DNA of 45,075 bases, from NCBI GenBank assembly GCA_030431515.1, contig JAUIIX010000023.1, forward strand, positions 1 through 45,075, read 5' to 3'. Shown in pieces: positions 1,853-44,452 of this stretch. The translations under genes were made by a program, and so were the position numbers. The notes under the pieces are model-generated. The model was given only the letters and a program-made list of their open reading frames with translations. It had not been told where the DNA came from and did no database searches. This stretch comes from a bacterium. Its GTDB lineage: Bacteria; Bacteroidota; Ignavibacteria; Kapaibacteriales; UBA2268. Position 1 is the stretch's first letter. Each line of letters begins with the position of its first letter.

Positions 1853-3139
1853 TTATTGATATTCTTCCATTTCTGAAATTAAGTTGTCTATTTCTTCAAA
1901 ATCTGGATAATCATCTTTTAGTTTATTCAAGATACTTAAAGCATCTTCGCTACTACCTAAGTTGAATTTACATTTAGCTTTACCTAAAGATAGACTTATA
2001 TTAGATGGTGCTAATTCTATTCCAGAGTCATAAATTTTCTCTGCATATACATAGTCTTCCATCATATACACTATATCACCAACCATATTTATCAAAAAGT
2101 CTAATGAAATAACATAATTAGTTTCCCATTTATGAGTTTGCCAATCAGTTACAAGTGGATTCAATAATTCAATTGCTTCTACTAAGTTTTCTTCAGATAG
2201 TAATTTTAGTATTTTAAGATAATCAATATCAAATTTGAACTTTTCATAATCTAAATCGGCTACTAAGTTATTTACTTCATCATAGTTTCCTTCTTGAGTA
2301 AATAGCATTGCCTTTATTAATTTTACATAATTTATTAATTCTGGGTCACTTATACTATCTAATATTGGAATTGCACTTTCAGCATCACCAATATTAATTA
2401 GATATTCTGCTTCACCTATTTTTGTAAAGTCATCATCAACATCCTTAATTTGATTTGCATAATCCTTAGATAAATTAGTATTATATAAATAATCAAGACG
2501 AGTGTACATTTTTAGAGTAGCTTTTTCCCAAGTCCAGAATTTTCTTGCTTTGTAGTTTGCTACATATCCCAAGTGTTTAATATAATTAGGATTATTAATT
2601 ATATCCTCAAATATTTTAATAAGGGATTCTTCGTCTGGCTCAAGGAAATAAGTATCTTTAACAAAAGTCTTTTCCTCATTCAATTTTATCAATTTTGGTT
2701 TAGACTCTATCTTCCAACCAACAAATTCATCAACAAAATCATCTGTAGCTCCCCCATCAGTTACAATTACTGGAAGACCACAAGCCATAGCTTCAAGTGC
2801 TGGTAAACAAAAGCCCTCACCTCTATAAGAGCTAACAAAGACATCGCAAGCACGGTAAAGCGAAGCCATTTCTTCTTCAGAAATATCCTCAGTGATATAG
2901 ATAATCTCAGGAGCATCTGGATTTTGCAGTAGTGTGCTTATCTGCTCCTGAGCGTTTTGCCCTTGATAAAATGTATCTCCTCCAATGTCTTTGATGACAA
3001 GCGATACAGGGTCATGTTTTGTATATGTTTTAACAAATGCTTTGAGCAAAACATCTATACCTTTTCTTGGCAGCGTACCACCAACAAAGAGAAATTTTAT
3101 TTTAGAATTAGAATTTATTTTATAATACTTTGATAACAA
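1853..3139 (-). pseudogene. Detached C-terminal part of the giant glycosyltransferase (GT4 C-half plus helical repeats)
   Basis: This frame holds the second Rossmann half of a GT4/GT-B glycosyltransferase, FVGGTLPRKGIDVLLKAF near its start and the nucleotide-sugar binding stretch GEGFCLPALEAMACGLPVIV. About 200 C-terminal residues of TPR-like helices follow. It cannot be a complete enzyme: the acceptor half of the same GT4 domain is at the end of the upstream ORF, which stops at 3115. The only start here is a TTG at 3137-3139 inside the inserted 74 bp, with no ribosome binding site. Removing one 74-bp unit joins the frames exactly at KYKINSN/SKIKF. It is therefore the 3' part of a disrupted gene, a phase-variable gene in its off state, or an assembly error. 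Confidence 0.8.
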
Positions 3140-3198
3140 AATATTAAAAGAAAATAGAGATAATAAATATTAAATTTAAAATTAGAATTTATTTTATA
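3106..3198 (-). repeat. 74-bp insertion bounded by 19-bp direct repeats that breaks the glycosyltransferase frame
   Basis: The 19-bp sequence AATTAGAATTTATTTTATA occurs at 3106-3124 and again at 3180-3198 (plus strand), 74 bp apart. On the coding strand both copies encode YKINSN in frame with their own ORF. Because 74 is not a multiple of 3, the second copy shifts the frame and brings an early stop. Slipped-strand or recA-type deletion between the repeats would restore one continuous protein. Confidence 0.85.
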
Positions 3199-6100
3199 TT
3201 TCGGTCCATAAGGATTAAATATTTCAGGATTTATACCATTAGGCATAACTTGAACTTTATCAAATTCAAGACCAGAGTTAATCATAGATTGTCTCGAAAA
3301 ATTAGAAGGAGTCCATACTTCTTCAGCTTTTTTCAATACATCATAAACATCTTGACGTAAAGCAGTATATTCCCATGGCTGCATAATTATCCATTTAGCA
3401 CCCTCTGGAATATCATCTTGAGGTGGCCATTGGTGGCGAATCCATACATAAGGTAAGTCAGAGTAATCCTCTTCTTCTACTTTATTATCAATATGATGAT
3501 TACTTAATATTTCAAATTTAGTGTTTCCTTCAGGACTAAAATTATCATCTTCATAAGGAATTATTGTTAGATTTACCAACCCAGATTTAATCATATTAAA
3601 TGACACTTCTCTATTAATCAAAGCAAGAGAATGATATACAAACTGAGTACCTTCCCAAATAATATTTAATTTTGCTTTTAATGGATTTAATTGATTATTG
3701 CTATGTTCATAGACTTTGCTTTCTCTTTGTATAGCATTAACTTGAACATCTGAATTGCTTTTTAAAATATTCTCATCAGTTTTTAATTTAAAAACATTAT
3801 TAGATTTCTTTTTAGCTTTAACTGTCATATTCAAGTTAATAAAACCTTGATTTTGAGGGAAATCATGTTCTTCATACGAAGTTATATCAAATCCAGAATT
3901 AGTTAAATGCTTAGTAATTGATTCTTTATCAAATCCAATACAATGATAATCACCAGGATTAGTCTGCCCTCCAAAAATCATATACGAAGCAACATCAGCA
4001 TCCCAATCCCCTCTCATATACGCTTCAATTTGTAATCTAATATTAGGACATCTAATAATAATTTCAGCACCATCTTTTAGAACTCTATTCCACTCTTTCA
4101 ATAACGATTGAGTTTCACGATGTGAGAAATGCTCTAACACATCACTCGCTAAAATTACATCTACAGAGTTATCAGGTATATTCAATTTACGAATATCCAT
4201 CTTCACTACATCTGCTCTTTCGCTGAATAAGTCAATATTAACAAAGCCCTGTCTTATGTCATTTCCACAACCAAGATTAAGTAATAATGGTGAAGGAAGA
4301 GGATCTGGCATTTGCCCAACAGCACTCTTGTTCGAAAAACCACCAGCAATATTATTGTCAAAACTAAGTCTATTCATTGGTGAATTTACATCTTGAGAAT
4401 ATAATTCACTACTAACTTGTGTATTATCATTAACTAACTCAATTTGCTTAATATCTAATTTGTCTTTAAATAAGAACTGAATATCCATAGGCAAACGAGT
4501 ATTTTCAATTGTTCTAAGATATATTTGTTTCATCTGATTGATATAATCACTAAATGAGAAAGTAAGATACGCATTTTCCCTCATCTTTGTAATTAATTCA
4601 GGTGAATTAGTTAACTCTCTTAAAATATTAGCAAGTTCTTCAACATTGTCATATTGGTAAATTCTACCATTAAAGTTATTTTCAATAAAATCAGAAAATC
4701 CCCCTATATTTGGAGCAATAACAGGCAATCCCATAGCAAGAGATTCCAAAATTGCGAAAGGAGCATTATCTTCCCAAAGTGATGGAAGAACAGCAATATC
4801 AATGTTTTCAGATATAGAATTTAATTCTTCAAACTTGTATTCACCTTTCAGATTTACATTAATATTAGTATTAATATTTTCTAAAACTGCTTTGTATTTA
4901 TCATCAACAAAACCATAAATATTTAATTCAGCCGTATCTTTTTGTAAAACACTTGCAGCAACTACTAAATTATGTACACCTTTATGTGGCATAACACCAC
5001 CAATATATCCAATTTTAATTGGTTGACTTATATCTCTATTTTTATTGGTATTTGTTAATTTCTCAACAGACTTAGGAACTTGATTAACAATAGTTATTTT
5101 TTCAGGTCTACACCCAAAATCTATTAATATATCTTTTACACGAGTAGAAACTGCTAAAGTCATATCAATATATTGATTTAACACTTGCCTTCCAGCTTCA
5201 ATTCTATTTAAGTAAGACTCTCTTAAACTTGGATCTTCTTTTAATGCTTCCGAATTTATAATTAAATCAACATTTTCCCATTTCTTCAATTCCGAACTAA
5301 TCATATAAAGATTAGGATCAATCAAATGATAATTAAATGGAGTATATAAAGTCTTATATCCTTTCGTTTTAGCAATTTTAGCAATATTAAAGGACAAGCC
5401 AACGAAATTATGAAAATGAACTAAATCAGGTTTAAACTCATTCAATACTTTCTCAAATATAGCCGAAACACTTGGATCATTTATTTCAAATTCTGCTTTG
5501 TATGGGTCAATGAAATTTATCTCACGATTATATATTCCAAGAAGATTAACACCTTCATCATTCCATTGTTTTATATGGTAAGGAGTTGGATTCCCAACAT
5601 CATCAACACCAGCATAAACAACTAAAACTTCATAACCTTGTTTTACATAATCAACGGCTACATCTCTTGGGAAAATAGTGCCACCACCACTTTCATTCCA
5701 AGCAAACATAGTCATTAATATTTTTAATTTCTTTTTAGAATTATCTTCAAATTCACCATACTTTACAAATTCAATTGCTTCAAGTAATTTATCATAACTT
5801 GTATTCAACAATACATTTACATTTGCTACAAAATCATAACTTGGATTTGCAAATAAAATTTCGCTAACTTTCTTAGCTTTTCTTTGATACAATTCTTCAG
5901 GTAATGGCTTTAAAGCTTCAAATAGTTCTTTCAATTTCTCTTGAAATAACTCAAACATAGTAACATCGCCTGCTATACCATATAATTTATCATCCAAATA
6001 AAACTCATTTGCATCAACTTTTAAGGTCTTTTCCCATTTGGATAAAAAATGCTTGTGATTCTTAGCATCATAAGAATCTGGTTCAGTTATAAATCGTTCA

Positions 6101-9100
6101 AACTTTTTAATCCCTTCAGATTTCTTAGTAATTGACTCGTGATGTATCCCCACTACTTCTGGGTTATACATTACTTTATAGCCATCTTTTCTTACTTTTA
6201 AGCATAAATCTAAATCCTCGTGTCCAAAGAAATATTCTTCATCAAACTTACCAACTTCACTAAACAATTCTTTTCTAATTGCAAGTAAAGCACCTGTTAC
6301 CATTTGAAACTCACGGTATTTATTTACCCATTCTAAACTTGGGTTAGCCGCTAAGTAAATATGATAATGTAAATTAAAGTTTTCGGCGACAGGTCCCCAT
6401 ACAACACCTGCATGTTGAATTAAACCATTAGGATAAACTAACTTCGCACCTTGAATACCTACACTACTATCAGATTTAAACTTGTCTTCAAGTGATTCTA
6501 ACCAACCTGGCTGAACTTCTACATCATTATTCAAAAACACTAAATACTTACCACGAGCAATTGCTGCCCCTTGGTTATTTGCTTTTGAAAACGATTCATT
6601 ATTCTCATTTTTAATTACTTTAACTAAATCAGAAATTGAATTCAAATATGCAAAAGTCTCATCTTCTGAGCCATTATCTATTATTATGACTTCAATTGCA
6701 TATAAAGCAGAAGTTTTATAAATATTCTCAATACATTTTTTAGTAAAACTCAAATTATTATGAACAGGAATAATAATAGAAAAATCAACATGTTCATAAG
6801 GATTAGTCAATTCACTTTTTATATCACTTTTTGCAAGATTATTATTTAACTCTTTAGATTCTTTGATTATTTCTTCATTCAATAATCTTTGCTTTTCCTT
6901 ATTTTGACTTACATTATAATTAGTTTGTTCTTGCTTTTCATCAAAATTAATTTTACCAAGCCATTTTTTATTCAATCTCTGCCAGTTAGGAATATCATGT
7001 TTATGTCTATCTTTAGTTAATGATTCATAGTGATATATAATAGAGTCTGCATTATACCAAATAATTGCTCCAATAGAACTTGCTTTAAAACAATAGTCTA
7101 TATCTTCTAAACCATTAATATATCCTTCATCAAGTCCACCAATAGCAGCTATTAAATCTTCACTTATCAACATAGCAGCACCAGTTACAGCACTCATTTG
7201 CTTAGACTTGTTTATCACATCATTGATATTATGATATTGCTCAATATGATAAGGTGCAAGAGTATTCCCATCTTCAGTCCCTATAACAACACCTTTATGT
7301 TGAATAATTTCTGAATCTGGATATAATAAACAAGAGCCAACAATACTTGCTTTATTATCATTTAAAATTTTTAAAGAGCTATCTAACCAATTTTCAGTAA
7401 CAACAGTATCATTATTTAATAAAAATACATGCTTACCTTTTCTATTTTCGATAGCTTGATTATTAGCAACAGAAAAACCTAAATTATTTTCATTCCTAAT
7501 TAATCTAAATTTATACTCAGATTGTAAATCTTCTAAAACCTTCTTAGTATCAGCATCAGACCCATTATCAACTACAATTAACTCAAATAAAATATAAGTA
7601 TTTTCATAGATAGATCTAATACATTGTTCTGTAATTCCATGCCTATTATAAACAGGTATCACAATTGAAACATCATAATCCCATTCATTTTCAATCACAT
7701 TTTTAGTTTGCGATTTTTCAATCTCTTGCATCTGAATATTAATTTTCTCATCTAATTCAAAAGCTGCAAGATTGTCCGGATTTAATATCATTTCAGTAGT
7801 GATGTTCTCACTTGCTTTTTCAAACTCTGATAAGTTAAACTCACAGTAAGCAAGTAAGTAGAAAATACCAATTTCAGCTGCTTCGGCATTTGTGACATTT
7901 GATTTTGCTGAAATAAATAGTTTATAAGCATCATCGACATAGTTACCTTCTAATAATTTTTTACCTTCTTCTATTAAATTAATTGCTTTAATCAATGGAT
8001 TTGTAATTTTAATTTGATTCAAATCATTAATTAATTCATTAATAGTTTCAATATCATCTTTCGTTTTAAGATTAATCATTTTATTGATCAAACTCTCAAA
8101 TTCCTCAATTCCATTCAAACATTCACTTAATGTTCTTCCTATTGAATACAGATCTGAAAATTCATTTTTACTTTTTTTATAATTTCCACCAAGTCCAGGT
8201 GCATTAATAGATTTTATAGTATCACTTTCGGCCCAACCAAAGTCTATTAAAACTGGCTTTTTATTTTTTAGAATTATATTACTTGGAGAAATATCTCTAT
8301 GTAAGATATTCTTGGATTTCAACTCAAGTAAAATACTAAAACAATGATTAATAAATTCTTTAATTTCTTGATTATTAAGCAAATTCTTAAGTGATTTTAA
8401 TTCGCCTAAGGTCTTCCCTTCTATGAATTTCATTTTAAAAGAAGAGAAATTTATATCTTCTTTATAATCAAACACATTTGGAAAATATTCAGAATCCAAA
8501 GTTGAAAGAATATCATATTCATTTTTAGCTATATTCTTATTAGCTTGTTTTTGAATAATAATTTTTTCATTTTCTAAATATTTATAAATTCTGCTAATAT
8601 AGAAAGTACCTTCATACCAGCATAAAATTCTACTTTGAAGAACAGTTTGAATCGGGTTTATATATCTAAAAGAATAATTAACTAAATCTTTATTTTCATC
8701 ATTTTTAGTATAATTATGTTCATTTATTAAGCTTTCTAAATAAGATATATTGTTAAGTTGCTTTTTAATTAAATTCAAATCAGAACTGGATGATAATTCT
8801 TTAATTACTTTTGTATATGTATTATCACCAGCCCCAAGAAAATAAACTATTGAATATATTAGATATAATATTTTATCGTTATTATTGAGAATATATAAAG
8901 CATCTTGCTTTATTCTATTATTTATTATTTTATTAATTAATTCTTTATTGAATAGATTATCATTTTCACTAATAATTCTAAGATTTATATACAATTTTTG
9001 ATTTTGATATTCGCCTATTTCAAATTGATAAACTAAAAAACCATTCGAATTCTTTAAATTAATTTTATCTAAAATTGTATCAAGATATGCTTTACCTTCA

Positions 9101-9969
9101 TTTGAAATAAGTACATCTATAGTTAAATCATTAAATTTATCATAACTATTTAAAATTATCTCTTCATTTCTAAGAATTACATAAGGTAAGTTTTTTTCAT
9201 TCAATTCAATAAATATATCTTGTAATGGTAAACCAATATATGATTTTTCAATTTCATTTTTTACATTATCTTCTTTAAAAGCAAAATATAGTTTTCTTGT
9301 ATCTTTAATATTCCCTATTACTTCCCAACTATCAAAATGCTTACTAAGTGCTTTTTCAAAATTCTCTTTAGAATACTCTTCAGAAATTACTTCTTTATTC
9401 CATTCAGTATGTTTAAAAAACTTAATTGCCTCATCATCTGGCTCAATCCATTCAATCACAAGAAGTTCATTAGTTAATGAAGAAAGTTTTTTAATAGCTT
9501 GGTCAAGTGAACCATAATCAGCAGTACAAGAGTAAATCCAATGGATAAGTGCAAAAGCAAAAACTAAATCTGCACTTTCACTAATATCAGACACATTTTT
9601 ATTTTCGATTTCAAAGTTTTGAATATTCAGGTGGTTTTTGGCAGCTGTTAACATATTGACATAAGTATTATCCATCTCGACTGCTCTAGCTTTAGCTGCA
9701 CCTTTAAATAGAGAATGAAAACAGAAATATGCAGAATTAGCTCCTAAATCTAAAACACTTTTATCTTTAATCCAATCAGAGTAAAAAATTGAATTAGTCA
9801 ATAACTTTTTATTAACTAATCCTTTATCATCAGGATTTATCTCCATAAATGAATCAGAAAGGAAATACTTTTGATAACCATGAAAAGTAATGACATCGCC
9901 TAAGTCAATTTTACCTGGCTCAGCATATCTATTCGGATCATCGTATAATTCTGTTTGCTTATTAGTCAT
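3115..9969 (-). CDS. Giant multidomain glycosyltransferase/methyltransferase (2,284 aa up to the frameshift)
   Basis: Positions are counted from the upstream alternative TTG/ATG at 9999; I prefer the ATG at 9967-9969 (MTNKQTELYDD). Modules in order: SAM methyltransferase (VLDLGANSAYF, about residue 82); a kinase-like module with HRDISPSNIIL and VLIDFGWAESD (about 560-590); a helical repeat stretch; GT2 glycosyltransferase 1 (VSIVIPVYNRHG about 776, FLLNNDTVV about 863); GT2 number 2 (FSIIIPVHNN about 1073, FLNNDVEV about 1156); GT4 number 1 (IGYIGGVMPHKG about 1663, AILESLAMGLPVIAPNIGG about 1753); a type-11 methyltransferase (LLNLGCGNDIRQGF about 1905, LASDVLEHF about 1956); and the N-half of GT4 number 2 (ending PNGINPEIFNPYG about 2256). 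It stops early after the 74-bp insertion; with it removed the protein would be about 2,700 aa. It most likely builds and modifies a cell-surface glycan or glycoprotein. Substrates cannot be read from sequence. Confidence 0.88.
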   Translation of the reverse strand: MTNKQTELYDDPNRYAEPGKIDLGDVITFHGYQKYFLSDSFMEINPDDKGLVNKKLLTNSIFYSDWIKDKSVLDLGANSAYFCFHSLFKGAAKARAVEMDNTYVNMLTAAKNHLNIQNFEIENKNVSDISESADLVFAFALIHWIYSCTADYGSLDQAIKKLSSLTNELLVIEWIEPDDEAIKFFKHTEWNKEVISEEYSKENFEKALSKHFDSWEVIGNIKDTRKLYFAFKEDNVKNEIEKSYIGLPLQDIFIELNEKNLPYVILRNEEIILNSYDKFNDLTIDVLISNEGKAYLDTILDKINLKNSNGFLVYQFEIGEYQNQKLYINLRIISENDNLFNKELINKIINNRIKQDALYILNNNDKILYLIYSIVYFLGAGDNTYTKVIKELSSSSDLNLIKKQLNNISYLESLINEHNYTKNDENKDLVNYSFRYINPIQTVLQSRILCWYEGTFYISRIYKYLENEKIIIQKQANKNIAKNEYDILSTLDSEYFPNVFDYKEDINFSSFKMKFIEGKTLGELKSLKNLLNNQEIKEFINHCFSILLELKSKNILHRDISPSNIILKNKKPVLIDFGWAESDTIKSINAPGLGGNYKKSKNEFSDLYSIGRTLSECLNGIEEFESLINKMINLKTKDDIETINELINDLNQIKITNPLIKAINLIEEGKKLLEGNYVDDAYKLFISAKSNVTNAEAAEIGIFYLLAYCEFNLSEFEKASENITTEMILNPDNLAAFELDEKINIQMQEIEKSQTKNVIENEWDYDVSIVIPVYNRHGITEQCIRSIYENTYILFELIVVDNGSDADTKKVLEDLQSEYKFRLIRNENNLGFSVANNQAIENRKGKHVFLLNNDTVVTENWLDSSLKILNDNKASIVGSCLLYPDSEIIQHKGVVIGTEDGNTLAPYHIEQYHNINDVINKSKQMSAVTGAAMLISEDLIAAIGGLDEGYINGLEDIDYCFKASSIGAIIWYNADSIIYHYESLTKDRHKHDIPNWQRLNKKWLGKINFDEKQEQTNYNVSQNKEKQRLLNEEIIKESKELNNNLAKSDIKSELTNPYEHVDFSIIIPVHNNLSFTKKCIENIYKTSALYAIEVIIIDNGSEDETFAYLNSISDLVKVIKNENNESFSKANNQGAAIARGKYLVFLNNDVEVQPGWLESLEDKFKSDSSVGIQGAKLVYPNGLIQHAGVVWGPVAENFNLHYHIYLAANPSLEWVNKYREFQMVTGALLAIRKELFSEVGKFDEEYFFGHEDLDLCLKVRKDGYKVMYNPEVVGIHHESITKKSEGIKKFERFITEPDSYDAKNHKHFLSKWEKTLKVDANEFYLDDKLYGIAGDVTMFELFQEKLKELFEALKPLPEELYQRKAKKVSEILFANPSYDFVANVNVLLNTSYDKLLEAIEFVKYGEFEDNSKKKLKILMTMFAWNESGGGTIFPRDVAVDYVKQGYEVLVVYAGVDDVGNPTPYHIKQWNDEGVNLLGIYNREINFIDPYKAEFEINDPSVSAIFEKVLNEFKPDLVHFHNFVGLSFNIAKIAKTKGYKTLYTPFNYHLIDPNLYMISSELKKWENVDLIINSEALKEDPSLRESYLNRIEAGRQVLNQYIDMTLAVSTRVKDILIDFGCRPEKITIVNQVPKSVEKLTNTNKNRDISQPIKIGYIGGVMPHKGVHNLVVAASVLQKDTAELNIYGFVDDKYKAVLENINTNINVNLKGEYKFEELNSISENIDIAVLPSLWEDNAPFAILESLAMGLPVIAPNIGGFSDFIENNFNGRIYQYDNVEELANILRELTNSPELITKMRENAYLTFSFSDYINQMKQIYLRTIENTRLPMDIQFLFKDKLDIKQIELVNDNTQVSSELYSQDVNSPMNRLSFDNNIAGGFSNKSAVGQMPDPLPSPLLLNLGCGNDIRQGFVNIDLFSERADVVKMDIRKLNIPDNSVDVILASDVLEHFSHRETQSLLKEWNRVLKDGAEIIIRCPNIRLQIEAYMRGDWDADVASYMIFGGQTNPGDYHCIGFDKESITKHLTNSGFDITSYEEHDFPQNQGFINLNMTVKAKKKSNNVFKLKTDENILKSNSDVQVNAIQRESKVYEHSNNQLNPLKAKLNIIWEGTQFVYHSLALINREVSFNMIKSGLVNLTIIPYEDDNFSPEGNTKFEILSNHHIDNKVEEEDYSDLPYVWIRHQWPPQDDIPEGAKWIIMQPWEYTALRQDVYDVLKKAEEVWTPSNFSRQSMINSGLEFDKVQVMPNGINPEIFNPYGPKYKINSNFKFNIYYLYFLLIFCYQSIIK

Positions 9970-10150
9970 TGAAAATATTGAATTAATGATAAAATACAAT
10001 ATTTAACTATCAATGACTATGCCAATAATAAAGTTCCATTCTTGTAATAATTCTAAATAAATTTAATAATAATTCTTAAACTCCCCTACTAAGTAAAATT
10101 TCCACTAAATTTCAAAATTCTCTAAATCATTTAGCTGAGTCGAATTGTCT

Positions 10151-37703: not shown

Positions 37704-37733
37704 AAAAAAAAAGAGAAACTAAAATAGTTTCTC
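37704..37733 (-). terminator. Rho-independent terminator of the Cys-rich peptide gene
   Basis: Stem GAGAAACTA (37713-37721) / TAGTTTCTC (37725-37733), loop AAA, followed on the minus strand by nine T. It lies 29 bp past the stop at 37763 and insulates the gene from the atp promoter. Confidence 0.92.
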
Positions 37734-37762
37734 CTTTTAATGAATGTTTTTTTAATATGGAA

Positions 37763-38182
37763 TTATAAACCACATTTACCTTCACCACATTTGTGTTCTT
37801 CACCTTTTTCTTCTTTGGCTTTTTCACCTTCTTTTTGTGTTTTTTCAGTATTTTCTTTGGTTTTTTCTTCACCACATTTACCTTCTCCACACTTTCCTTC
37901 ACCACATTTGTGTTCTTCACCTTTTTCTTTGGCTTTTTCGCCTTCTTTCTTTGGTGTTTTAGCCTTTTCTTCTCCACCACCACAGGTGTTTTCACCACAA
38001 TTCATTTCAACAGCCATTAAACTTGATTGAAAATCCATGTTTAAATTTGTTGATAAAATATCTGCTCTTAGATTGTTTGCAGAACCTAAATCTGAAATGA
38101 TACCAGCACTTGCAACTGATCCACTTGCTATAAATGCACCAGCAGCTATGCTCAACAAACTACTTTTAGTAGATTTTTTCAT
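37763..38182 (-). CDS. Secreted Cys-Gly-rich low-complexity protein, HvfA-like RiPP precursor candidate
   Basis: 139 aa. A clear signal peptide (LLSIAAGAFIASGSVASA, cleavage near residue 26) is followed by about 35 ordinary residues and a Lys/Glu/Gly-rich tail. All seven Cys (62, 67, 93, 98, 103, 132, 137) are followed by Gly, as NCG, TCG, HKCG or EGKCG; the protein ends EGKCGL. A signal peptide plus repeated EGKCG is the hallmark of HvfA-type precursors, whose Cys are modified by DUF692 (HvfB) and HvfC partners to bind copper. No such partner is in the window. Residues 79-99 and 117-138 are an internal duplication. The start has GAGG upstream, and its own terminator follows. It could alternatively be an unmodified metal-binding protein. 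Confidence 0.7.
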   Translation of the reverse strand: MKKSTKSSLLSIAAGAFIASGSVASAGIISDLGSANNLRADILSTNLNMDFQSSLMAVEMNCGENTCGGGEEKAKTPKKEGEKAKEKGEEHKCGEGKCGEGKCGEEKTKENTEKTQKEGEKAKEEKGEEHKCGEGKCGL

Positions 38183-38278: not shown

Positions 38279-40348
38279 TTACTGAATCTTAAATTCTACT
38301 CTTCTATTCTTTGCTCTATTCTCATCACTATCATTTTTCAACATGGGTTTACTTTCACCAAATCCAGTGGCACTAAGTCTTTCTTTTGAGATACCTTTAC
38401 TACTTAAATATTCCATTACTGAAATTGCTCTATCTTTTGATAATTTTAGATTATAACTTGCACTTCCTTGGTCGTCTGTATGCCCTATTATTTCAATTTT
38501 AATTCCTTCATTAGAATTTAAAAAATCAACGAGTGAATTTAGTTCTGAATAAGAATCTGTTTGCAAATCAGCTTTATTGTAATCAAAAAATAAATTATTT
38601 AATATTATTTCTGCACCTTTTTCAATCGGTGTTAGTAATAAATCAACTACTACTTCTTGGTAACGGTGAATATCCGATAAGTCTAAATTTTGACTAATAG
38701 GATAATATCCTTCTTTGATTGCATTAAATGAATATTTTTTACCTCTTTGCAATATAATTTTAAACTCTCCAGAAACATCATCAGAACTAGCAGTTCCAAG
38801 TTTATCGTTAGTTTTTATGTCTTTATATTCTACATTTGCAGAAATTGTCTTTCCTGTTTTTGTATCTTTAACTATACCTTTTACTAAACAAACTGGGTCT
38901 GGTCTAACTGCTGGAGGTAAATTTAGTTTTATCAAATCTAATTCTTTTCCTTCTCTATTTGATGTCATATAAGCAAATTCCCCACTCGCATCTAAAGTTA
39001 AATAAGCATCCCATTCTGGTGAATTTATATTATTTCCCATATTAACAGGTATTGTCCAATTCGTCCATGATTCATCTAATCTTTTTGTCATATAAATATC
39101 ATCTGAACCATAACCACTGAAACCTGCAGTTGAATAATATAAAGTTTTTAAATCAGGAGCTAAAAAAGCACCTGTTTCTTGTGTAAATGTGTTTACTATC
39201 GGGCCTAAATTTTTTGGTTTGCTAAAAGTACCATCTTCTTTTTTAAAACTAACATAGATATCTTTCATTCCAAAGGTAAATGATCTTTGAACAGTTAAAA
39301 TTAAAATATTACCATCAGCAGATAACATATATTCACTATACTTAGAAAAATTTTGAAAATCTTCAATTTTGACTTCCTTAGGTATCTCCCATTTATTTTG
39401 AATTTTTCTACTTATCGATATTCCTGAACTTTTAGGACTTCCATCTTCTTTATAAGTGTTCATTACCATTAATGTATTACCATCAGAAGTAATTGATATT
39501 ATAGAATTATGACCACTATTATTAATTGGTTTTCCTATATTTTCAACTTTTGAAAAAATACCATTAGAATCTTTTATAGCATAGAATACATCACTATCAT
39601 TTATTTTGTCAGGAGTTGATTTATCACTTCGAGTAAAAAACAATATATTTCCATCTGGACTAACTTTTGGTGATTTTTCAGTATGAACACTATTTATTTC
39701 ATCATTTAAGAATTCTTTTTTTATTTCGAAATTTATATCCTCATGTAAATTAATAGGAGATTCCACTTGTTTGATACTAAAATAATCAATATCTATATTC
39801 ATTTTTTTTTGAATTGAAATCCCAAATGAAGTACCGTAAAGTTTAATAGAATCATTCTCGTAAACTTTTTTATTATTTAAATAAAATGAATAATTAGACT
39901 GAACTTTTTCAATTTTTAATATATTATAATCTTTATTGTTGATAATATTTGATTTGATCCATTTTGTATGTTCACTTTCTTGACCTATAGACTTACTATA
40001 TATTTTATAGTTGCCATTTCCAGTCACTAAAAAATAATTAGCATAATCATAATCATAAGATCCAAATACTAATCCATAACCATAGTTATCAGCTCCATTT
40101 ACAAATTTTAACTTTATTTCTAATTCAAAATCTTTATTAGGGTCAATAAATATTTCTCGATTTACATTCAACCACTTTGAAGTAGAATGCATATCTAAAT
40201 TCATTACACCATTTGCAATTTTCACATTGCAAATTTTTGAATTAAAGTCATCCCATAATGATTTACTTCCATCAAATTGTTCATTTATAATATAATTATC
40301 TGAAGAAATTGCTAAATTTAAGTTTAGCAATAATATAAGTAAGTACAT
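38279..40348 (-). CDS. LamG-like / PD40 / OmpA-domain surface protein, paralogue 2
   Basis: 689 aa with an N-terminal signal peptide (MYLLILLLNLNLAISS). Domains in order: a jelly-roll LamG/DUF1080-like domain (about 20-195); PD40 propeller-type repeats with SPDGNILFFTRSD, TSDGNTLMVMN, SADGNILILT and APDLKTLYYST (about 230-470); a carboxypeptidase-regulatory-like Ig domain (KGIVKDTKTGKTISANVEYK, about 485-565); and a C-terminal OmpA peptidoglycan-binding domain (LFFDYNKADLQTDSYSELNS, EIIGHTDDQGSASYNLKLS, NRRVEFKIQ). It should sit in the periplasm or outer membrane anchored to peptidoglycan. It lies 39 bp after its close paralogue. Confidence 0.88.
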   Translation of the reverse strand: MYLLILLLNLNLAISSDNYIINEQFDGSKSLWDDFNSKICNVKIANGVMNLDMHSTSKWLNVNREIFIDPNKDFELEIKLKFVNGADNYGYGLVFGSYDYDYANYFLVTGNGNYKIYSKSIGQESEHTKWIKSNIINNKDYNILKIEKVQSNYSFYLNNKKVYENDSIKLYGTSFGISIQKKMNIDIDYFSIKQVESPINLHEDINFEIKKEFLNDEINSVHTEKSPKVSPDGNILFFTRSDKSTPDKINDSDVFYAIKDSNGIFSKVENIGKPINNSGHNSIISITSDGNTLMVMNTYKEDGSPKSSGISISRKIQNKWEIPKEVKIEDFQNFSKYSEYMLSADGNILILTVQRSFTFGMKDIYVSFKKEDGTFSKPKNLGPIVNTFTQETGAFLAPDLKTLYYSTAGFSGYGSDDIYMTKRLDESWTNWTIPVNMGNNINSPEWDAYLTLDASGEFAYMTSNREGKELDLIKLNLPPAVRPDPVCLVKGIVKDTKTGKTISANVEYKDIKTNDKLGTASSDDVSGEFKIILQRGKKYSFNAIKEGYYPISQNLDLSDIHRYQEVVVDLLLTPIEKGAEIILNNLFFDYNKADLQTDSYSELNSLVDFLNSNEGIKIEIIGHTDDQGSASYNLKLSKDRAISVMEYLSSKGISKERLSATGFGESKPMLKNDSDENRAKNRRVEFKIQ

Positions 40349-40387: not shown

Positions 40388-42454
40388 TTATTGAATTTTG
40401 AATTCTACCCTTCTATTTTTAGCTCTATTTTCATCGCTGTCATTGCTTACTATAGGTTTAGTTTTTCCATAACCAACAGCACTAAGTCTTTCTTTTGAGA
40501 TACCTTTATTAGTAATATAATTCATAACAGATGTTGCTCTACTTTCAGATAATTTTAAATTATAATCAGCACTTCCTTGGTCATCAGTGTGACCAGAAAT
40601 TTCAATTTTTATATCTTTATTAAATTTTAAAAATTCAACTAAATTATTTAATTCTGAATAGGAATCTGATTGTAAGTCAGCTTTATTATATTCAAAAAAA
40701 ACATTATTTAAAATTATTTCAGCACCTTTTTCTATTGGAGTCAGATACAAGTCAACTTCAACTTCTTGATATTTATTTATTTCAGATAAGTCTAAGTTCT
40801 GACTAATAGGATAGTATCCTTCTTTTTTTGCATTAAAAGAGTATTTTTTTCCACGAATTAAAATAATTTTAAAAACACCTGAAATATCATCAGAACTTGC
40901 TGTTCCCATTATTTCATTTGTATTTAAATCTTTATATTCTACAATTGTACTTAATATTTCTTTTGTTTTAGAATCTCTGATTGTTCCTTTTACTAAGCAT
41001 ACTGGGTCTGGTCTTACTGATGGAGGTAAGTCAACTTTTAAAATATCTTGATTATTTTCTTCTTTCACTGAAGTCATATACGCAAATTCACCACTTGCAT
41101 CTAAACTTAAATAAGCATCCCAATCATCAGAATTAATTTTATTACCAAGATTAACAGGTGTACTCCAATTAGTCCAAGTATCATCTAATCTTTTTGTCAT
41201 AAATAAATCATTATATCCATACCCCTTATATCCAAATGTAGAATAATAAAGTGTAGTCTTATCTGAAGCTAAAAACGCTCCTGTTTCTTGAGAAAATGAA
41301 TTTACAACAGGTCCTAAGTTTTTTGGTTTAGAAAAAGATCCATCTTCTTTTTTGAAACTCACATATATATCTTTCATACCAAATGTTTCATTTCTTTCTA
41401 TTGTTGAAATTAATGTTGTTCCATCAGCTGAAAGCATATATTCACTAAATTCAGAATTATTATGAGCATCTTCAACTTTAATTTCAATAGGCACTTGCCA
41501 TTTATTATTAACTTTTTTACTTATTGATATACCACTTCTTTCTGTACTACCATCTGGATTATATACATTTAATACCATTAAACTATTTCCATCTGACGTA
41601 ATTGAAATTGCCGAATTATTATCTTCATTATTCAAGGGCTTACCAATTGATTTTGCAAAAGTAAAATTACCTTGAGCATCTTTTTCTGAATAAAAAATAT
41701 CAGTTCCTAAGTCATTTCCATCTTTATCAATAATTTCTCTATCAAAAAATAAAATATTGCCATCTGGACTTATGTAAGGTGCATTTTCAGATATTTCACT
41801 ATTTATATTTTTACTTAAATATTCTCTTTTAATTTCATAATTAATATCTTTATGTAAATTGATTTCAGTAGCTTCTTGAATTAAACTGAAGTAATCTACA
41901 TCAACACTCATATTGTTTTGTAGTGTAAATCCATTTTGAATACCATAGAATTTTGGCCTATCGCTTTCAAATATTTTATTATTATTTATATAATAAGTGA
42001 AATTATTTCCCTCTTTTAAGATTTTTAGAGTATTAAAATCTGTTTTACTAATAAAATCACTTTTAACCCAATCAGTGTATTCAATAGTTTTACCATTATA
42101 GTCGGCATATACCTTATATTCACCATTATTACTGATTACAAAATAATTAGCATATTTATAATTGTGTGAGGCATAAGCAATTCCATAATCTCCTTCTTTA
42201 TCACCTGAGTTAAATTTTATTTTAGTTTCAATTTGTAAATCTTTAATTGGATGCAAATACATTTCTATTAAAATATTTTCCCATTCAGATTCTTCTACAA
42301 TTTGAATATTCAAAACACCATTATTTACTTTTAATTCTGAAAATTCAACAAAAGAGTTTTGCCATTTATGGTTTACATTGTTAAAATCTTCATTTATAAG
42401 AAAGTTTTCTGATGAAATTGCAAAATTTAATAGTAACACTATTATTAATGACAT
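40388..42454 (-). CDS. LamG-like / PD40 / OmpA-domain surface protein, paralogue 1
   Basis: 688 aa with the same architecture and nearly the same length as the next gene: signal peptide (MSLIIVLLLNFAISSE), jelly-roll domain, PD40 repeats (SPDGNILFFDREI, SADGTTLISTIER, ASDKTTLYYSTFGYKGYGYN), Ig-like regulatory domain and OmpA domain ending AKNRRVEFKIQ. The C-terminal half is nearly identical to paralogue 2 while the jelly-roll half has diverged, so ligand preference may differ. It starts 52 bp behind acr3 on the same strand. Cotranscription with the ars genes is possible, as I see no terminator between them. Confidence 0.88.
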   Translation of the reverse strand: MSLIIVLLLNFAISSENFLINEDFNNVNHKWQNSFVEFSELKVNNGVLNIQIVEESEWENILIEMYLHPIKDLQIETKIKFNSGDKEGDYGIAYASHNYKYANYFVISNNGEYKVYADYNGKTIEYTDWVKSDFISKTDFNTLKILKEGNNFTYYINNNKIFESDRPKFYGIQNGFTLQNNMSVDVDYFSLIQEATEINLHKDINYEIKREYLSKNINSEISENAPYISPDGNILFFDREIIDKDGNDLGTDIFYSEKDAQGNFTFAKSIGKPLNNEDNNSAISITSDGNSLMVLNVYNPDGSTERSGISISKKVNNKWQVPIEIKVEDAHNNSEFSEYMLSADGTTLISTIERNETFGMKDIYVSFKKEDGSFSKPKNLGPVVNSFSQETGAFLASDKTTLYYSTFGYKGYGYNDLFMTKRLDDTWTNWSTPVNLGNKINSDDWDAYLSLDASGEFAYMTSVKEENNQDILKVDLPPSVRPDPVCLVKGTIRDSKTKEILSTIVEYKDLNTNEIMGTASSDDISGVFKIILIRGKKYSFNAKKEGYYPISQNLDLSEINKYQEVEVDLYLTPIEKGAEIILNNVFFEYNKADLQSDSYSELNNLVEFLKFNKDIKIEISGHTDDQGSADYNLKLSESRATSVMNYITNKGISKERLSAVGYGKTKPIVSNDSDENRAKNRRVEFKIQ

Positions 42455-42506: not shown

Positions 42507-43538
42507 TTATTTATAAAAAACTTTTTCCAATTTTTTAGATAATGCTACCAAAAGAATCAAAGCAGGTACTTCGATAAGTGGACCGATGACACCTACAAAT
42601 GCTTGTCCGCTATTAATACCAAAAACTGCTATTGACACAGCAATTGCCAATTCAAAATTATTGCCAGTAGCTGTAAATGCAATTGAAACATTTTCAGAAA
42701 ACTTGATTTTATACCATTTTGCAATTACAAAACTTATAAAAAACATAAATACAAAATAAATTAACAGTGGAATTGAAACTAAAAGTACATCAAAAGGTAA
42801 TTCTAATATCATTTCTCCTTTCATACCAAACATTATAATTATAGTAAATAAAAGTGCATACAAAGTCAGTGGCGAAACTTTAGGAATATATTTTCTTTCA
42901 TACCAATCTTCACCCTTCATTTTCACAAATAGCAATCTACTCAAAAAACCTAATAAAAAAGGTAACCCTAAATATATGAGAACACTTTCACTAACTTGTT
43001 CTATACTTATTTCAACAATTTGCCCTTCTAATCCGAATAATGGTGGTAACTTAGTAATGAAAAGCCAAGCATAAAAACTATAAGTAAATACTTGAAAAAT
43101 AGAATTTAGTGCTACTAAAGCTGCTCCCATTTCTTTACTACCTTTTGCTAAGTCATTCCATACAAGCACCATAGCAATACAACGTGCAAGACCTATCAAT
43201 ATTAATCCTGCCATATATTCTGGGTAATCTTGTAAAAATAGAATTGCTAGAATAAACATTAAAATAGGACCGAGAATCCAGTTCAAAAATATAGATAAAC
43301 TAAGGACTTTAACATTTTTGAAAATTGAAGGTAATAGTTTATATTTAACTTTTGCAAGTGGTGGATACATCATTACAATTAGCCCAATAGCTATTGGAAT
43401 ATTAGTAACTCCAATCGAAAAACTATTAACGAAATCAGGAAATGAAGGAATTAAATATCCAATAAAAATTCCTACAAACATTGCAATAAATATCCAAAGG
43501 GTTAAATATCTATCTAAAAATGATAACCTTACATTCAT
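42507..43538 (-). CDS. acr3: Arsenite efflux permease Acr3
   Basis: 343 aa, ten predicted membrane helices, expelling arsenite (and often antimonite) using the proton motive force. Family segments are [30 protein letters not shown] and [18 protein letters not shown] with the functionally essential Cys (C120), plus [21 protein letters not shown] and [15 protein letters not shown]. Length and motifs separate it from the larger ArsB permease. It starts 1 bp after arsC, so the two are coupled. Confidence 0.95.
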
Positions 43539-43539
43539 A

Positions 43540-44103
43540 TTACTTTATCCTTGAAATTAGATAAAATATTTGAGTTGCTATTTCTTCGCATCTTTCTTTA
43601 TAGCCATCTTTTACTTTATCAGTATTATCAAAAATCTTTGGGTCATCAAATGTCAATGAAAACTTTGCTTTTGCACCCATAACATTTGGACAATTTTCAT
43701 CAGCATCTGAGCAAGTCATAATTGCTATAAAATTATCTTTGGAGTTATACTCATCATCATAAAGTTTGGAAAAACATTTGCTTATATTACTACCTACGAA
43801 ATGTTCATAAATCGGATTTTTTCCTTCGCCTTTAACTAATTTAACTCCAAAAGAAGTAATTGCATCAACAGCATTTGGGTTAAACTCAGTTGTTTCCATT
43901 CCACCAGAATAAAAACTTAACTTATCACTTATTCCATAAAAAGCTGAAGCTTCTCTCCCCCACACCTCACACATTTGACTACGTCGACTATTATGAGTGC
44001 AAATAAAATTAATATTTTTAATCTCATTTTTCTTAATAAAATCAGCAATAGTATTTAATAATTCTTTTCTAGAATCTAATATAGTATCAAACTTTTCAAA
44101 CAT
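43540..44103 (-). CDS. arsC: Arsenate reductase, low-molecular-weight phosphatase type
   Basis: 187 aa, reducing arsenate to arsenite for export. The phosphatase-like P-loop is C35-THNSR-R41 ([20 protein letters not shown]), the CX5R motif. The enzyme is longer than the 130-140 aa of thioredoxin-dependent Staphylococcus-type ArsC, with extra sequence around [20 protein letters not shown]. Other Cys occur in [20 protein letters not shown], which could supply the resolving thiols. It resembles the group common in Bacteroidota arsenic operons. It lies 16 bp after arsR and 1 bp before acr3. Confidence 0.9.
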
Positions 44104-44119
44104 AAAAACCCTAAATAAT

Positions 44120-44452
44120 TTAACAACAATCTAAATTTGGAACAGAATCATAATTTAAAAACTCATTCAAAATAAACTTATAATTAGCTAACACATCATA
44201 ATCTATACAATAACAAGTTTTAACCCCTTCTATAGAACCTTTAATCAGCCCAAATTTCTTTAACTCTTTCAGATGTTGTGAAATAGTTGATTGAGATAAA
44301 CCAATTTCGCTTACTAAATCACCACAAACACATTCATTTTTTTGCATCAATTCTTGGAGTATAGCAATTCTGGCAGGATGAGCTAAAGTATTGCAAATTT
44401 TTGCAATTTCAATTTGTTTTTCAGAAAATAAATCTAATTTAGAAAGACCCAT
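44120..44452 (-). CDS. arsR: ArsR-family arsenic-responsive repressor
   Basis: 110 aa, a winged-helix repressor released from DNA by As(III) or Sb(III). The DNA-recognition helix is in EIGLSQSTISQHLKELKKFG. Cys41 and Cys43 (NECVCGDL) form the classic metal site at the start of the recognition region. Further Cys are C20, the pair in KTCYCIDYD and the C-terminal Cys-Cys, which may add ligands. It is first in the arsR-arsC-acr3 operon and has a palindromic operator 25 bp upstream of its start. Confidence 0.93.
   Translation of the reverse strand: MGLSKLDLFSEKQIEIAKICNTLAHPARIAILQELMQKNECVCGDLVSEIGLSQSTISQHLKELKKFGLIKGSIEGVKTCYCIDYDVLANYKFILNEFLNYDSVPNLDCC

Follow-up and report, generated by a model that had tools for sequence, protein, structure and literature searches.

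Can a metallophore precursor whose gene stands apart from its maturation enzymes still be modified in the cell that makes it? An hvfA-like gene in the 45,075-nucleotide stretch of DNA that we analysed (hereafter, the window) raises this question. The initial annotation described it as an orphan, monocistronic precursor of a copper-binding peptide in an FCB-type genome, and proposed that the peptide might be modified by enzymes encoded elsewhere or act unmodified as a metal sponge. Our analysis favours the former. With a probability of roughly 0.8, we read the gene product as an HvfA/oxazolin-type (captophorin) RiPP precursor that is probably matured in trans, to copper-binding 5-thiooxazoles, by an HvfB–HvfC pair encoded on another contig of the same genome, C77. 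The features of the two loci are collected in Table 1.

Table 1 Features of the hvfA locus and the distant enzyme pair. Positions refer to the window unless a contig is named.
Feature	Position	Strand	Basis or remark
hvfA-like precursor ORF	37763..38182	minus	ATG at 38182, stop at 37763; 139 aa
Signal-peptide-like segment, residues 1-26 (MKKSTKSSLLSIAAGAFIASGSVASA)	38105..38182	minus	judged by eye
Post-signal leader motif LGSANNLR, residues 32-39	38066..38089	minus	pattern and leader profile
Core region, residues 61-139, seven Cys-Gly motifs	37766..38002	minus	alignments A2, A5
OmpA/PD40 protein gene	38279..40348	minus	96 nt upstream of hvfA, possibly co-transcribed
OmpA/PD40 tandem paralogue	40388..42454	minus	61% identical to the paralogue at 38279..40348
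acr3 arsenite efflux transporter	42507..43538	minus	TIGR00832, 426.1 bits (cut-off 282.8)
arsC-like low-molecular-weight phosphatase-fold protein, 187 aa	43540..44103	minus	below arsenate reductase cut-offs
arsR/SmtB metalloregulator	44120..44452	minus	PF01022, 49.8 bits; NF033788, 67.5 bits (cut-off 55)
Intrinsic-terminator-like hairpin and T-run	37708..37738	minus	24 nt past the hvfA stop codon
hvfB and hvfC pair	C77:6598-8161		profile searches

The translated reading frame agrees with the initial description of the peptide: a signal-like start, seven Cys-Gly motifs and a C-terminus that reads EGKCGL. Signal peptidase follows an AxA rule. By eye, the peptide begins with a segment rich in Lys, continues with hydrophobic residues and then reads ...VASA followed by GI. 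This start is clear by eye and aligns with the N-termini of relatives' precursors. The seven motifs are one NCG, one TCG, two HKCG and three GKCG, among which EGKCG occurs three times and EHKCG twice. The two atypical cysteines (NCG and TCG) lie in a core insertion that, by alignment, is missing from the sister genus. Between signal and core lies LGSANNLR, a possible recognition element for HvfC.

Profile searches compared the peptide with the current HvfA models. Against the NCBIfam HvfA repeat model NF050137 (cut-off 19.5), the precursor protein scored 18.5 bits (E 0.0012), and its gene reached 21.3 bits, over the cut-off, in the genome search. Three sister-genus homologues adjoining hvfB scored 17.5, 19.2 and 19.4 bits, and two Bacteroidota homologues passed with 44.7 and 23.3. 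The HvfA equivalog model NF050188 gave the precursor 17.4 bits against a cut-off of 95. Because none of five homologues adjoining hvfB reached that cut-off either (17.5, 21.6, 29.6 and 23.5 bits, with no match for L020; the best sister-genus score was 21.6, and 29.6 and 23.5 belong to the two Bacteroidota homologues), this model does not discriminate in the group. DUF2282, the domain of Bufferin BufA1, was absent from the precursor, for which a Pfam scan to E 1 returned two weak unrelated matches. Our own homologue profiles A2 and A5 (the latter built from 26 of 78 relatives' precursors plus the window precursor) matched the window protein at 2.7e-29 and 1.4e-22, scores that are high by construction because both profiles contain it.

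A further profile, of the leader, excluded the window protein. It was built from 78 precursors found among the best 80 of 115 relatives, and the window leader scored 19.0 bits against it. Among 1000 versions with a shuffled post-signal part the highest score was 13.4, and no control ORF, of 95 scored, exceeded 6.1. Of these 78 precursors, 75 have the pattern [LM]G[ST][GA]xx[LVIM]R; among those that do not, two show an MGNG variant and one is cut. The leader ties the window peptide to the relatives' precursors independently of the repeats. In Chitinophaga, precursors beside hvfB (L062, L077, L090, L091 and L092) keep the leader motif but have KCS, KCT, KCA or KCV where KCG would be expected, a naturally occurring substitution at the position that follows Cys. 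Neither the repeat model nor the homologue profile found a second precursor gene elsewhere in the window genome.

A search of the whole genome for the DUF692/MNIO family (PF05114) recovered a single gene, on C77, with 335.9 bits. The initial annotation had found no modifying enzyme in the window, which this result and the scanned window ORFs bear out; it had also reserved the label of a generic Cys-rich protein for a genome with neither a DUF692 gene nor an HvfA match. This genome has one DUF692 gene, on C77, a match that rules out a precursor with no modifying enzyme anywhere in the genome. The encoded protein passes the HvfB equivalog NF003818 (377.9 bits, cut-off 360) and lies below the BufB equivalog (282.5 versus 310). 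The 3' end of hvfB and a DUF2063 gene share 14 bp. This neighbour, the gene to which our DUF2063 assignment applies, passes the Pfam model PF09836 (54.8 bits, cut-off 27.2) and falls below the HvfC equivalog NF050145 (109.5 bits, cut-off 142); alignment A6 combines it with 41 of the 76 partner genes that we identified. The structure predicted for the protein, with a mean pLDDT of 94, resembles gonococcal PME1 (3DEE; Z 16.3, with 3.8 A over 199 residues) and chain A of TglHI (Z 14.4), presumably the partner chain, given that chain D is the DUF692 chain. RRE chains with bound leader peptides gave Z 8.7, hardly above the 8.2 of the unrelated NO66. With its DUF2063 match and the RRE fold of this model, the C77 partner has the predicted make-up of an HvfC (PME1). 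The conjecture that enzymes encoded elsewhere might modify the peptide thus has its candidates, hvfB and hvfC on C77, and the term orphan suits the locus but not the genome.

Several features suggest that the enzyme is competent. Of the 72 columns that show no variation among the best 80 of 115 relatives, C77 HvfB retains 71, and it is conserved at each of the 11 ligand-type positions that we checked. The Glu, His and Asp positions among them other than N171, D213 and H215 we take to be metal ligands in the general sense. These three residues correspond, through the 3bww alignment, to N175, D242 and H244 of Haemophilus influenzae HvfB, of which the Ala variants are inactive according to section 23 of PMC13419390. 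Section 14 of PMC13097082 assigns to MNIOs acting on Lys-Cys (EGKCG) substrates two Arg near the N-terminus and a Phe after the catalytic Asp. One sentence there places the second Arg in the Cys-Lys group, seemingly contradicting the rest of the section, which we followed. C77 HvfB has the Lys-Cys-type residues R7, R8, D244 and F245, with FonB numbering carried over by motif rather than by FonB alignment. Among the best 80 of 115 relatives the combination is RR..DF in 47, RK..DF in 25, RR..DY in 6 and RR..DL in 1, with 1 cut; of four MNIOs taken from other families in the order, the three that were aligned have RS/RT..DE/DA. Because FonB with Ala in place of the RR or F residues still gave modified product (PMC13097082, section 14), these residues tune selectivity and do not decide it, and we treat them as supporting evidence that is not decisive. 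Judged by its residues, C77 HvfB looks functional and of Lys-Cys type.

In the HvfB tree, the enzyme of this genome (G000) sits beside Ignavibacteriota rows with support of 96/77, short of the tool's star, on a branch of 0.84; this long branch and the support values leave the position less than firm. The nearest named hvfB contigs among the best 80 of 115 relatives come from Ignavibacteriota MAGs such as HGW-Ignavibacteriae-4, in line with the FCB-type genome proposed initially. On a contig labelled Bdellovibrionales, an hvfA–hvfB pair (L095, 1554-2736) encodes an HvfB that the tree places, with a long branch, among Bacteroidota rows, which suggests transfer or mis-binning.

We then compared the gene arrangement with that of relatives. 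In the family, DUF692 exceeds the cut-off in 5 of 54 genomes (a sixth has a short match below it), and the precursor occurs in the same five: this genome and four from a single sister genus that have their hvfA, hvfB and hvfC genes in a row. Two genomes of the same genus, with completeness of 92 and 76%, have neither. Across a 395-genome sample of the phylum, profile A5 found the precursor in 7 genomes, one weakly (E 8.6e-4), all 7 with DUF692 over its cut-off; 17 of the 24 DUF692 genomes lack a precursor by A5. Such overlap has a chance probability of 1.2e-9 if genomes are independent, but the genomes are related, so few independent gains lie behind it. In six of the seven, 62-310 nt separate the precursor match from the DUF692 match, both on one strand; the genome studied here is the remaining case. 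The repeat, the leader motif, homologues adjoining hvfB and this co-occurrence all uphold the initial assignment of the gene as an HvfA-like precursor.

Named genomes gave the same picture. Of 115 HvfB relatives we kept the best 80, and 71 of these have a precursor with at least two KCG directly upstream of hvfB, at gaps of 12-307 nt. Seven more have a variant-core precursor there; these failed the two-KCG rule and were accepted by eye among the 78, and for the leader profile any of them with an ORF that began further upstream was taken to start at an internal Met. Two loci (L070 and L104) have no upstream sequence to score, and L083, whose precursor is cut at the contig start, was kept. All 78 scorable loci among the best 80 of 115 relatives thus carry the precursor directly upstream of hvfB, which makes this genome an exception to the linkage. 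L033 and G025:C100 appear to be one and the same contig, and L030-L032 are probably the other sister-genus genomes or close kin, so independence of the 78 loci and the four family genomes cannot be claimed. In a Flavobacteriia MAG (L052, 4627-5484), ORFs that by eye resemble an ECF sigma factor and a small anti-sigma factor lie directly upstream of an hvfA-type precursor, which suggests sigma control of that gene; sigma/anti-sigma genes are described for Buf1 clusters in section 14 of PMC12452194.

Such an exception could arise trivially if one of the two contigs were chimeric or foreign, and the assembly is indeed a 160-contig draft. Yet hvfA and hvfBC both lie inside their contigs, with genes on each side. 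On C77, the permease is 75% identical to that of G002 and 72% to that of G001, both of the same genus, versus 67% to the sister genus. The window contig holds the only copies of topoisomerase I and atpB found in the genome. Its topoisomerase I is nearest to G001, if narrowly (62% versus 61% for G025); its atpB, with 57-60% identity to the sister genus and 46% to G001, is a point for a foreign contig. GC content is similar (28.9 and 29.9%), reported contamination is 0.16%, and the tetranucleotide correlation of 0.974 compares with 0.974-0.993 inside the window, a test that separates poorly because contigs from other genera of the order also reach r 0.96 with the window. On balance an assembly or binning artefact is very improbable, and the split looks real. 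As its cause we considered recombination between OmpA genes and rejected it: DNA matches are at chance level (best E 0.078), and the OmpA proteins preceding hvfA and hvfB share 34.5% identity over an 84-residue OmpA domain. In the stretches read, no hvfA lies upstream of the ATP synthase genes of G001, G005, G025, G070 or G071, and no hvf gene upstream of the C77 permease homologue in G001 or G070.

Decay offers another way to lose the usual gene order, leaving hvfA as a remnant whose peptide or enzyme pair no longer works; the long HvfB branch and the atypical first two cysteines would suit it. Against decay, hvfA, hvfB and hvfC are all open and of the lengths seen in relatives, HvfB has kept nearly all its invariant columns, and the EGKCG repeats are regular and followed by a terminator-like hairpin. 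We regard a remnant as highly unlikely.

The more serious rival, improbable in our view, is that the peptide is exported unmodified and serves as a simple thiol metal sponge, hvfBC having lost its substrate or acting on another. Physical separation of precursor and enzymes speaks for it, as does the published survey: sections 20 and 21 of PMC12452194 allow that unlinked precursors may stay unmodified and count 67 of 2583 Buf_EGKCG genomes without MNIO genes. The profiles would also have passed over any precursor of a different type near hvfBC. Reading the ORFs of at least 50 aa in 3.8 kb around hvfB (about 1.5 kb each way), we recognised no precursor. Set against the sponge are the intact hvfBC with conserved catalytic and Lys-Cys-type residues, the retained leader motif of the window peptide, and the failure of both profiles, and of reading the ORFs near hvfB, to reveal any other precursor. 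With one recognisable precursor and one enzyme pair in the genome, the pairing is simple.

Maturation in trans would then proceed as follows. In the cytoplasm, HvfB (the MNIO) and HvfC (its DUF2063-RRE partner) would bind the leader around LGSANNLR. By analogy with HvfA/FonA-type maturation, in which each Cys becomes a 5-thiooxazole with a change of -4 Da (PMC13097082), the pair would convert the cysteines of the Cys-Gly motifs. Because all seven precede Gly, up to seven rings could form, with NCG and TCG the less certain sites: section 13 of PMC13097082 reports that FonBC modifies some non-EGKCG motifs once only and that charged residues after Cys block modification. The modified peptide would next be exported by Sec and would bind periplasmic copper, most likely buffering excess metal. 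Weighing against this scheme, precursor and enzymes are unlinked and the precursor protein scores under the cut-offs of both HvfA models. The same holds for the long HvfB branch, the HvfC score below its equivalog cut-off, the RRE matches that barely exceed an unrelated chain, the lack of a DoxX gene beside either locus, the NCG/TCG insertion and the 17 of 24 DUF692 genomes without an A5 precursor.

The surroundings of hvfA bear on how the peptide might be supplied. The initial annotation placed the gene on the same strand behind an arsenic operon and envelope genes, and so it is: arsR, the arsC-like gene, acr3 and the two OmpA/PD40 genes precede it, at gaps of 16, 1, 52, 39 and 96 nt. The first three form a complete-looking arsenic operon (42507-44452, minus strand) with the tandem OmpA/PD40 genes close behind; the arsC-like protein is longer than the arsenate reductase models. 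Elsewhere in the window, a 2294-aa ORF (3115-9999, minus strand) unites a protein-kinase domain, a methyltransferase domain and several glycosyltransferase domains that belong to two families; another glycosyltransferase-TPR ORF follows at 1853-3139.

Whether hvfA is monocistronic, as initially annotated, is doubtful. The hairpin 3' of the gene fits that description at one end and sets hvfA apart from the ATP synthase genes; a terminator scan near hvfA made two calls on opposite strands for this one hairpin (shuffle mean 0.1), and a 71-nt fold there has z -4.18. At the other end, the intergenic gaps lead back to the arsenic genes with no terminator-like site between 38000 and 45075. Shuffled sequences gave only 1.1 such sites in that interval, so their absence is weak evidence for read-through. 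Promoter scans were near or within the shuffled range (6 versus 7.3; 64 versus 52.9 +/- 8.5) and uninformative. The gene may be the last of an arsR-arsC-acr3-ompA-ompA-hvfA unit; alternatively, it may have its own promoter within the 96-nt gap. Shared regulation of the hvfA and hvfBC loci was considered and set aside: no word common to the two upstream regions exceeds 8 nt, which at 29% GC is no evidence either way.

From this neighbourhood we offer one speculation, which we judge unlikely. In it, hvfA would have left its cluster and joined a metal-stress unit under ArsR control as the final cistron before the terminator, hvfBC being regulated separately. How much peptide is supplied for maturation in trans would then depend on arsenite or thiophilic-metal stress, and thiooxazole peptides would contribute to defence against arsenic in addition to copper. 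Among the 6 titles listed of 5,516 papers, none linked MNIO peptides to arsenic, a result that does not prove absence.

Comparison with characterised systems sharpens what is unusual here. According to PMC13419390 and PMC13097082, the H. influenzae oxazolin, a thiooxazole metallophore made from HvfA with HvfB, HvfC and HvfX, likewise has a precursor with a signal-like start and repeated EGKCG, an HvfB-type MNIO and an HvfC-type DUF2063-RRE partner. The window precursor differs in its charged spacers between Cys blocks, its NCG and TCG motifs and its distance from hvfBC. Neither locus has an adjoining hvfX/DoxX gene; two DoxX-like genes lie elsewhere in the genome, neither beside hvf genes; one shares 30% identity with the DoxX encoded in the sister genus's hvf cluster, and the other has no clear match. 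The Buf_EGKCG/oxazolin peptides and captophorins, including fontiphorin and bulbicupramide, share EGKCG repeats and an RR/DF enzyme, and in PMC12452194, PMC13097082 and PMC12538549 they are reported mostly from Pseudomonadota, whereas this precursor belongs to Ignavibacteriota and lies away from its enzymes. The family's own homologues adjoining hvfB (L014, L020, L021 and L022) share the leader motif and core repeat and accompany an HvfB that is 64-66% identical to that of C77; they differ in having hvfA, hvfB and hvfC adjacent and a core without the NCG/TCG block.

Stand-alone precursors of the bufferin and oxazolin families, like this one without a linked MNIO, have already been published (PMC12452194, Fig. 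3 legend and sections 14, 20 and 21), so adjacency of precursor and MNIO is an arrangement and not a defining property. Sections 20 and 21 of that survey leave undecided whether unlinked precursors are modified by a distant MNIO or not at all. What sets this genome apart from the cases in those sections is an unusual and clean split, with one recognisable precursor on one side and one enzyme pair on the other. With the precursor and the single HvfBC pair at two loci, the survey's question becomes testable by co-expression of three genes. The leader signature that follows the signal peptide is a candidate HvfC recognition element in Bacteroidota and Ignavibacteriota. In these same phyla the NCBIfam HvfA models miss members of the family, as two of the six precursors scanned pass the repeat model and none of the six the equivalog.
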